From positions 1 through 38,315 of the forward strand of contig JASHPF010000003.1 in the NCBI GenBank assembly GCA_030038295.1: a DNA stretch of 38,315 nucleotides, given 5' to 3'. The translations under genes and the position numbers were made by a program. The notes below the pieces were generated by a model, which worked only from the letters and a program-made list of their open reading frames with translations, did not search any database and had not been told where the DNA came from. The stretch comes from Streptosporangiaceae bacterium (GTDB lineage Bacteria > Actinomycetota > Actinomycetes > Streptosporangiales > Streptosporangiaceae). This document shows positions 22,028-24,141 of this stretch, piece after piece. How positions within the stretch are numbered: position 1 is the first letter of the stretch; each line of letters opens with the position of its first letter.

Positions 22028-22492
22028 CTAATCCGACGCCAGGGAGCCGTGCCGGGCCCGGTGCGGCGCGGGCTTGTCGACGGCCGGCGGCGGCACGGGC
22101 GTGACCTCGCTGGTGCAGTACATGCAGCGCTTCGCGGCGACCGGGATCTCGCTGAGGCACTCGGGGCACTGACGCTGCGTCGCGACCTTGTTCCGGGTGG
22201 CGAGCGCGGTCATCTTGGCGGTCGGGGCAACGACCAGCCAGTAGATGACCGCGGCGATGACGATGAACGAGATGGCCGCGTTGATGACAGCGCCGTAGGT
22301 GAACGTCGAGTGGTGCACCATGAAGGACAGCTTGCTGAAATTGAGCTTGTTGCCCGTGATCGCGGTGATGAGCGGGGTGATCATGTCCGCGACGAGGGCC
22401 TGGACGATCGCGTTGAACGCCACGCCGATGACCACCGCGATGGCGAGGTCGATGAGGTTCCCCCGCATCAGGAAGTTCCGGAAACCGCTCAT
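22028..22492 (-). CDS. mscL: Large-conductance mechanosensitive channel MscL with C-terminal zinc ribbon
   Basis: Pentameric channel that opens under high membrane tension and releases solutes on osmotic downshock. The 154-residue protein has the MscL start [20 protein letters not shown], a pore-lining first segment (about 13-40), an outer loop ([15 protein letters not shown]) and a second segment (about 66-90). After the [12 protein letters not shown] linker comes a four-cysteine motif, C109-PE-C112 and C123-MY-C126, where ordinary MscL has a short helical bundle, then a Pro-rich tail. This looks like a zinc ribbon. The start is ATG at 22492 with GGAAGGTGAG upstream; 21 residues of open frame before it are not MscL-like. 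It faces the polymerase gene across 57 bases. Confidence 0.92.
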
Positions 22493-22705
22493 GCTCACCT
22501 TCCAAGCCCAGCGTCGCCGCCTGTCGTGCCGAGTCCGCGAGCGTGACATTACCAAAGAGTGGCGGCTATTTGACCTGATGAAGGACGAGGCGGGCGGACG
22601 GATCGGAACGCCGCAACGCGGGCAGGCGCGCGATCGCCGCGACCGGTGCTTGTGATAGGCAGGCAGCGTGCCGGAGGACAGCGCCGCCTGGCAGGAGACG
22701 CCGCC

Positions 22706-23128
22706 ATGAGCCTCGCGGTCACGGTGCGTGGCATCACGATTCCGCCCGACGAGCTCACCTGGCGGTTCTCCCGGTCCCAGGGGCCCGGCGGACAGTCCGT
22801 CAACACCACGGACAGCCAGGCGGAGCTGTCGTTCGACCTGGCCGGGTCGGCGGCGCTGCCGCCGGTGCTCAAAGAGCGCGCGCTCGCCGCGCTGTCGGGC
22901 CGGCTTTCGGGCGGTGTCATCACCGTGGCCGCCAGCGAATACCGGTCCCAGCTCCGCAACCGCGAGGCAGCGGCCGCTCGGCTGAGCGCGCTGCTGACCG
23001 ACGCGACCGCGCCGCCCGCGCCGACCCGGCGCCGCACCCGGCCCAGCCGCGCGTCCGTCGAACGGCGGCTCGCGGACAAGCAGCGACGCGCCGCGATCAA
23101 GCGGCTGCGCCGGCCAACCGACGACTAA
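22706..23128 (+). CDS. arfB: Alternative ribosome-rescue factor ArfB (peptidyl-tRNA hydrolase)
   Basis: A 140-residue class I release-factor-like protein that frees stalled ribosomes lacking a stop codon by hydrolysing peptidyl-tRNA. The catalytic GGQ is at residues 28-30 in [13 protein letters not shown]. It lacks the codon-recognition domains of RF1/RF2. The C-terminal tail (from about 100, [20 protein letters not shown] and on to KRLRRPTDD) is basic, as in ArfB, where it enters the empty mRNA channel. AGGAG lies nine bases before ATG at 22706; the frame is open earlier without a better start. The next gene on this strand modifies 23S rRNA, so both act on the ribosome, though the second has its own promoter. 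Confidence 0.92.
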
Positions 23129-23220: not shown

Positions 23221-24141
23221 GTGAGCACCGCGAGACCGCGGCCTGGCCCAGGCCGTCCTGGCCATCCTGGCCGCGCCGCTGCCGGGCGAGTAAGCGCCCG
23301 TGGCGGGCGCACCGAGGCCGACCGCCGTCGGCGCGAGCTGTCCCAGAACTACCTCCGCGGTCAGCAGGCGGCCCGCCAGTTCCTGACCGCGGTACGCCCC
23401 GACCCCGACGGCGTGTGCGTGGAGGTCGGGGCGGGAGAAGGCATCCTGACCAGCCGGCTGGCCACGCTGTTCAGCGAGGTCATCGCCTACGAGATCGACG
23501 CGAATCTGGCCGGCCGGCTCGCCGCCAGGGTGGCGGGCCGGCCGAACGTTCGCGTGGTGCTCAGCGACTTCCTCGCCGCCCGGCCGCCCTCCCGGCCGTT
23601 CCAGGTGGTGGGCAACGCGCCCTTCTCGCTGACCGCCCCGATCGTCGAGTGGTGCCTGCACGCTTCGAAGATGACCGCGGCGACGCTCATCACCCAGCTC
23701 GAGTACGCGCGGAAGCGAACCGGCGGCTACGGTCGCTGGACGCAGCTGACGGTCAGCACGTGGCCGGTGTTCGGCTGGCAACTGGCCGGCACGATAGCGC
23801 GGACCGAGTTCCGCCCGATGCCCAGGGTGGACGCAGGCATCCTCCGGCTCACGCGCCGCGCGCAGCCGCTGGTGAGCCCTGCCCGCCAGGCTGCGTACCG
23901 GCGGCTGGTGCAGGCGGGGTTCAGCGGGGTCGGCGGATCCGTGCAGGCCTCGCTACGCCGGTCCTATCCACCCGAACACGTGGCGGCGGCGTGCGGGGAA
24001 GCGGGCGTGGACCGGCGGACGATCGTCGCCTACGTGAGCCCGGACCAGTGGGTGCAGATCTTCCACGCGCTCGAGGGCCGCGTGCGCAGGCCGGCCGACC
24101 GGCGGGCGGTGCGCGGATCCGCCGCCGACCAGCAGCGCTGA
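23221..24141 (+). CDS. Erm-family 23S rRNA adenine N6-methyltransferase
   Basis: SAM-dependent methylation of 23S rRNA, in this family at A2058, which blocks macrolides, lincosamides and streptogramin B. The 306-residue protein has a Pro/Arg/Gly-rich disordered start (1-40), then SQNYL (41-45), EVGAGEG (68-74, SAM motif I), E91, D116 and the catalytic NAPF (132-135), where most Erm proteins have NIPY/F or NVPF. QLEYARKRTGGYGRW and EFRPMPRVDAGIL are typical actinobacterial Erm signatures and separate it from KsgA. The C-terminal helical domain ends near 285. It is chromosomal, with no mobile element or antibiotic cluster nearby, and so may be an intrinsic resistance or housekeeping methylase; activity is inferred. 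Confidence 0.85.
   Translation: MSTARPRPGPGRPGHPGRAAAGRVSARGGRTEADRRRRELSQNYLRGQQAARQFLTAVRPDPDGVCVEVGAGEGILTSRLATLFSEVIAYEIDANLAGRLAARVAGRPNVRVVLSDFLAARPPSRPFQVVGNAPFSLTAPIVEWCLHASKMTAATLITQLEYARKRTGGYGRWTQLTVSTWPVFGWQLAGTIARTEFRPMPRVDAGILRLTRRAQPLVSPARQAAYRRLVQAGFSGVGGSVQASLRRSYPPEHVAAACGEAGVDRRTIVAYVSPDQWVQIFHALEGRVRRPADRRAVRGSAADQQR

Follow-up and report, generated by a model that had tools for sequence, protein, structure and literature searches.

A MscL channel with a predicted four-cysteine zinc ribbon in place of its C-terminal helix, a common alternative tail in Actinomycetota and Chloroflexota

What kind of tail does the MscL encoded at this locus carry, and what could a four-cysteine segment do at the cytoplasmic end of a membrane channel? 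The gene lies in a 38,315-nucleotide stretch of DNA from a Streptosporangiaceae bacterium (assembly GCA_030038295.1, contig JASHPF010000003.1), hereafter referred to as the window. A first-pass annotation had pointed to two cysteine pairs, CPEC and CMYC, 11 residues apart at the place where MscL normally has a small helical bundle, and had proposed that zinc binding or cysteine oxidation there could gate or anchor the channel.

The mscL gene, including its stop codon, occupies positions 22028–22492 on the minus strand. It is intact: the coding span (22031–22492) specifies 154 amino acids from an ATG at 22492, the stop codon ends at 22028, and a putative Shine-Dalgarno-like sequence, GGAAGGTG, can be read just 5′ of the ATG (22496–22503, minus strand). 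The product scored 109.8 bits with the Pfam MscL model (PF01741; cut-off 27.4) over residues 1–117 and passed the NCBI model TIGR00220 (82.5 bits; cut-off 71), while seven narrower NCBI MscL models matched it, each under its own cut-off. M. tuberculosis MscL (PDB 2oar) aligned to residues 2–91 with an E value of 7.8e-15, that is, over the whole two-helix channel part. From this alignment, residues 1–92 (22217–22492, minus strand) constitute the channel part, with the N-terminal amphipathic stretch, TM1, the periplasmic loop and TM2. A cytoplasmic linker between TM2 and the first cysteine (residues 93–108; 22169–22216, minus strand) leads to the predicted four-cysteine zinc ribbon (residues 109–126; 22115–22168, minus strand), which was located by sequence, a DNA pattern, a model of the tail, and fold and profile searches. 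The protein closes with a proline-rich basic end that, in the alignment, varies among relatives (residues 127–154; 22031–22114, minus strand).

CPEC corresponds to residues 109–112 and CMYC to residues 123–126; 10 residues separate the inner cysteines, a distance of 11 positions, in agreement with the spacing first noted. Inspection of the sequence and the alignment revealed no C-terminal bundle-helix motif LLxEIRDLL in the window MscL, and the four cysteines stand there instead. The first-pass description, a MscL with a four-cysteine ribbon in the place of the usual helix, is thus confirmed, the ribbon being encoded at the 3′ end of the gene. Judged by its sequence, the window protein is a true MscL with a probable zinc ribbon replacing its C-terminal helix. 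In the window's assembly (4.43 Mb, 87% complete), we found one MscL, that of the window; a match to UPF0547 occurs at the mscL locus only, with a score under the cut-off, and the 4.43 Mb contain a single match to a DNA pattern for CPxC-x7-A-x2-CxxC, at mscL. The closest relative of the protein is 77% identical, and another genome of the genus to which the window belongs has the same protein. Also in the window, a small RF-1 domain protein (72.8 bits; 22646–23128, plus strand), which we take to resemble a ribosome-rescue factor, is encoded beside an rRNA adenine dimethylase (PF00398, 158.5 bits; 23221–24141, plus strand).

The idea that the ribbon is a zinc binder is very probably correct, given its match to a solved zinc site. 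A profile of 46 ribbons detected residues 432–451 of E. coli RadD with an E value of 0.0016, the next matches, some of them by chance, having E values of at least 0.04; a single ribbon sequence matched RadD with an E value of 0.2. According to the available portion of the RadD crystal-structure report, zinc finger 2 (ZF2), which was solved with zinc, holds it via Cys434, Cys437, Cys448 and Cys451 (PMC9049331). By sequence, this finger is the closest solved relative of the ribbon. AlphaFold2, supplied with an alignment of three sequences (the window protein, L056 and L057), modelled residues 89–135 with means of 89–90 pLDDT for the ribbon blocks and 73.9 overall, two of the five tail models being poor (mean pLDDT 49.4 and 47.3). 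The full-length model from three sequences had a mean pLDDT of 52.4 and a pTM of 0.22 and was kept out of the fold search. When the tail model was submitted to Foldseek, the top rows were mostly RanBP2-type zinc fingers and RadD; there was no match at an E value of 0.001 or better, the best being 0.11, and RadD superposed at 0.5 Å across 26 columns with an E value of 0.28. VIA placed RanBP2-type fingers first, with Z scores of at most 4.3, and gave RadD a Z score of 2.6 at an rmsd of 5.4 Å. The Pfam models UPF0547 (PF10571; 23.3–25.5 bits against a cut-off of 29) and double zinc ribbon (PF12773; 18.9 bits against 27.3) stayed below threshold. Each of these scores is weak singly; because sequence, fold and solved site agree, we strongly infer that the ribbon binds zinc through its four cysteines.

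Conservation of the cysteines in close orthologs had been set as a test beforehand. A search for close relatives covered 60 genomes, including the window's own, 49 of which gave a match; 37 of the 60 represent the window's family (its own genome, 8 of the same genus and 28 of the same family). MscL is held by 30 of these 37 (its own, 6 of the same genus and 23 of the same family), and all 30 have the ribbon form and none the helix form, so that the cysteines are kept in every examined family genome in which the channel was found. In one genome (G003), the closer copy (L024) is frame-broken and another ribbon MscL (L047) is intact. The ribbon cannot be ascribed to chance, since its pattern occurs once in the assembly and each of the 29 other MscL-bearing family genomes has a four-cysteine tail.

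An alignment of 38 MscLs contained 13 invariant columns, six of them inside the ribbon; as the rows had been chosen for having the ribbon, the four invariant cysteines follow from that choice, and the other two columns are the proline that follows the first cysteine and an alanine three positions ahead of the third. In the larger set of 153 ribbon sequences, the spacing was C-x2-C-x10-C-x2-C in 147 and had x11 in the remaining 6, this same alanine was present in 152, and an arginine or lysine directly preceded the third cysteine in 150. The ribbon class was called by a four-cysteine rule, and its cysteines are therefore present by definition; independent of this rule are the count within the family, the retention of the alanine and the arginine or lysine, and the absence of partial cysteine sets. 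Among 101 ribbon MscLs, 93 have no cysteine besides those of the ribbon, 64 have 18–20 residues (range 13–35) between the column of the proline (residue 90 of the window protein) and cysteine 1 of the ribbon, and a median of 10 residues (range 1–35, with sequences cut at 160 residues) follows the last cysteine. Per-position counts over 95 ribbons showed that the positions not needed for the fold are mostly variable. Compared with the nearest relative, the ribbon codons differ by 4 silent changes and 1 amino-acid change, and the rest of the gene by 22 and 34, respectively; the direction is that expected for purifying selection on the ribbon codons, without significance (Fisher p = 0.15). A paralog group (L041, L044, L046, L047, L115 and L117), in which the cysteine pairs lie one residue further apart, as in CPACLSADLPAAASKCKYC, forms one clade with an SH-aLRT support of 100.

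The proposed survey of the motif among MscLs was run in Actinomycetota and Chloroflexota, and it found the ribbon to be common and well conserved. The profile matched 143 of 246 sampled Actinomycetota genomes, some via ribbon-only proteins alone; as a control, Pfam's MscL model, which does not derive from our set of ribbon forms, exceeded its cut-off in 131 of the 246. Among the matches listed, a list truncated at its weak end, 136 Actinomycetota MscL places comprised 64 with a ribbon, 55 with a helix and 17 others, of which one is interrupted by the end of its contig and another is broken. The 64 ribbon places, one of which stops at a contig end just past the ribbon, come from 64 of the 246 genomes, one place in each. 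Ribbon and helix MscLs occur side by side, encoded by separate genes, in five genomes (G057, G163, G217, G218 and G267). In Chloroflexota, 117 of 201 genomes gave a match, some via ribbon-only proteins alone, and 71 places were examined: 53 had a ribbon, 16 a helix, and 2 were cut or broken. These 71 consist of the 30 best loci, L057's own locus and 40 others listed, mainly at the weak end, a choice that favours helix forms and mostly leaves out the middle of the list. A control search found MscL in 10 of 14 well-known genomes, the tail type not being given by this search.

An automatic rule sorted 252 distinct channel sequences from Actinomycetota, Chloroflexota and one viral contig into 153 ribbon, 81 helix and 18 other forms; the 18 include L235, whose helix tail the rule missed, the frame-shifted L055, and L269, which is cut by masked bases. 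None of the 252 carries both tails. Four rows that do not belong to the ribbon class also have cysteines in the region of the tail: L199 has one in an acidic tail, the cysteine of L212 lies in TM2, L055 is frame-shifted, and L269 is cut. Among the complete non-ribbon tails of this set, no half-decayed ribbon was found. The ribbon tail is a common, well-conserved alternative end of MscL in two large phyla, Actinomycetota and Chloroflexota.

Several further tail forms came to light in the survey. In twelve MscLs (L189, L191, L192, L194–L196, L198, L199, L201, L202, L204 and L221), the tails are very short and for the most part acidic (FKVLRLERLDLEEEE is an example), and both the helix motif and the ribbon are missing; the ten that were included in the tree described below group in a single well-supported clade. 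In family f40, the MscLs L154 (114–611, minus strand) and L155 (305–763, plus strand) have a DUF4177-like tail that is neither helix nor ribbon, the match being weak and under the cut-off (E values of 0.005 and 0.05). The ribbon MscL genes L024, L051, L054, L153 and L283 are broken or partial, in separate pieces. Finally, unrelated proteins mostly from genomes of family f34 (L224, L225, L228 and L230–L234) have a similar four-cysteine ribbon near the N-terminus, in most cases followed by stretches like YTHSGxRYLLGYGxxxFGIWDR; for the two that were scanned, L225 and L231, Pfam gave weak zinc ribbons only and nothing for this stretch.

The relationship between the two major tails was addressed with a tree of the channel part (179 rows, 91 columns), from which the tails had been left out. 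The ribbon label changes 17 times on this tree, at least 5 of the changes being forced by well-supported branches. Forcing all ribbon forms into one clade costs 141 log-likelihood units, and a single ribbon clade, and with it a single origin, was rejected by the AU test on a quick tree (p-AU 0.000749); the tails have thus replaced each other more than once. When Chloroflexota were added, the tree (251 rows, 92 columns) was less resolved and had 24 ribbon-label changes, 3 of them forced. Some ninety columns is a small number for trees of this size; as the channel sequences indicate, helix and ribbon tails have been swapped repeatedly at one slot. Such an exchange is what one would expect if both tails do related work, and it could also reflect a weak constraint on the slot.

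What the tail does has been debated for the helical bundle itself. In the parts of the literature available to us, the bundle of E. coli MscL is proposed to be a molecular sieve and a stabiliser of the oligomer, and the role of the cytoplasmic end is called controversial (PMC5722894); for M. tuberculosis MscL, the bundle is described as unnecessary for the oligomer and as altering tension sensitivity and conductance, the effects of C-terminal truncation differ between species, and some homologs, such as acetivorans MscL, do without the C-terminal domain (PMC6167328). The bundle helix is thus typical of MscL rather than defining, at least from these accounts. In the reading that we prefer, the zinc ribbon would fill the slot of the C-terminal five-helix bundle of the well-studied channels. 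Every subunit of the pentamer would close with a knuckle, one zinc gripped by four cysteines, about 18–20 residues beneath TM2, and the five ribbons, whose pentameric arrangement we infer, might form an alternative cap under the pore, or part of one. They could then take on the jobs proposed for the bundle, namely pentamer cohesion, tuning of the opening tension and coarse sieving. An alternative cap is the simplest reading because the ribbon occupies the same slot, often at a similar distance from TM2, was in no case found together with the helix in one protein, and has been exchanged with it. The evidence hints weakly at the cap role as such; that a structural zinc ribbon serves as cap, sieve or clamp in the place of the bundle is, in our estimate, an even call.

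Other roles have to be weighed against this one. The ribbon might be a docking site that, like RanBP2-type fingers, binds RNA or another protein and thereby anchors the channel to a partner in the cytoplasm: the nearest PDB folds are RanBP2/NZF fingers whose structures were determined with Ran, ubiquitin or RNA, and similar ribbons occur on unrelated proteins, mostly of family f34 genomes. However, a likeness of fold alone reveals no partner, and most of the ribbon positions outside the fold residues vary, so that we think docking unlikely. The gene neighbourhood bears on this point as well. In a scan of 98 of 180 candidate flanking ORFs at 49 ribbon loci, chosen by length and including some that are not genes, the commonest families were RcpC (9 of 98), VanY (8), DNA polymerase A (6) and SAF (6). 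No gene family thus recurs beside ribbon mscL in more than 9 of the 98 ORFs, which is a mild argument against a dedicated co-encoded partner. A protective end-cap, folded merely to guard the C-terminus from proteases or misfolding with no role in the channel, would fit the short acidic tails that replace the C-terminal region in one sampled clade, and also the account, in the available part of PMC6167328, that this region is largely dispensable in the MscLs studied. Against it, the ribbon is conserved across two phyla and has been swapped repeatedly with the bundle helix rather than decaying freely, and we regard a mere end-cap as decidedly unlikely.

The position of the four cysteines, a short linker below TM2, would also suit the switch envisaged in the first-pass annotation, in which loss of zinc or oxidation of the cysteines alters the opening tension. 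We consider such a switch very unlikely, and the same slight weight attaches to its fuller version, in which the five ribbons would make a metal-dependent cap and zinc supply or thiol oxidation would shift the tension at which the valve opens. Four cysteines conserved together with fold residues are typical of a structural zinc site, and it is in this manner that the ribbon is kept. A structural site fits better than a switch because 93 of the 101 ribbon MscLs have no other cysteine, no partial set or half-decayed ribbon was seen among complete tails, and no zinc, redox or metal gene family is found among the 25 commonest of the 77 flanking families of ribbon loci. The structural ribbon in the slot of the bundle remains our preferred reading.

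Several ribbon mscL genes have a VanY-type carboxypeptidase gene next to them (8 of the 98 flanking ORFs), and a predicted vanY follows the ribbon mscL of Nonomuraea gerenzanensis (L267). A mobile or viral origin of the ribbon form received no support from viral and plasmid matches. With searches based on short peptide patterns, viral contigs yielded no relative to the single protein and one relative, L235, to the alignment; the latter has a helix tail. Three of 110 plasmid records had a match covering at least 80% of the query, and the one plasmid-collection match whose tail was read, an 11.85 Mb record of Nonomuraea gerenzanensis, has the ribbon form.

Among the matches listed in our literature search, which covered titles and the openings of abstracts and few subscription journals, we found no description of a ribbon-tailed MscL, and the NCBI models name such proteins simply MscL. 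The ribbon form is apparently ordinary in annotation and undescribed in mechanism. MscL is a model for membrane force sensing, and the natural, repeated replacement of its bundle by a fold that is very probably held by metal amounts to an experiment by evolution: putting either tail on the same channel body and comparing the results would reveal the purpose of the slot. If zinc should matter for gating, the metal state of the cell would be linked to the release of turgor, a link of which we know no description.

The ribbon can be set beside several known systems. RanBP2-type zinc fingers (Nup153, Nup358), its nearest solved folds by Z score with weak scores, presumably share its cysteine spacing. 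Their consensus has a tryptophan before the first cysteine and an asparagine after the second, both of which the window ribbon lacks. UPF0547 and the double zinc ribbon (PF10571, PF12773) have the same style of motif and are the best Pfam matches of the tail, under their cut-offs. E. coli RadD ZF2 (PDB 7r7j) has the same C-x2-C-x10-C-x2-C arrangement as the ribbon and the same placement of CP, the alanine and RC; RadD itself, an ATPase of DNA repair, has no membrane part, and homology of the two is unproven for so short a motif. The canonical MscLs (E. coli; M. tuberculosis, 2oar) share with the window protein the family, the two TM helices and the N-terminal GF-x2-FL-x2-GN; where they have the C-terminal LLxEIRDLL bundle helix, the window MscL has its four-cysteine ribbon.
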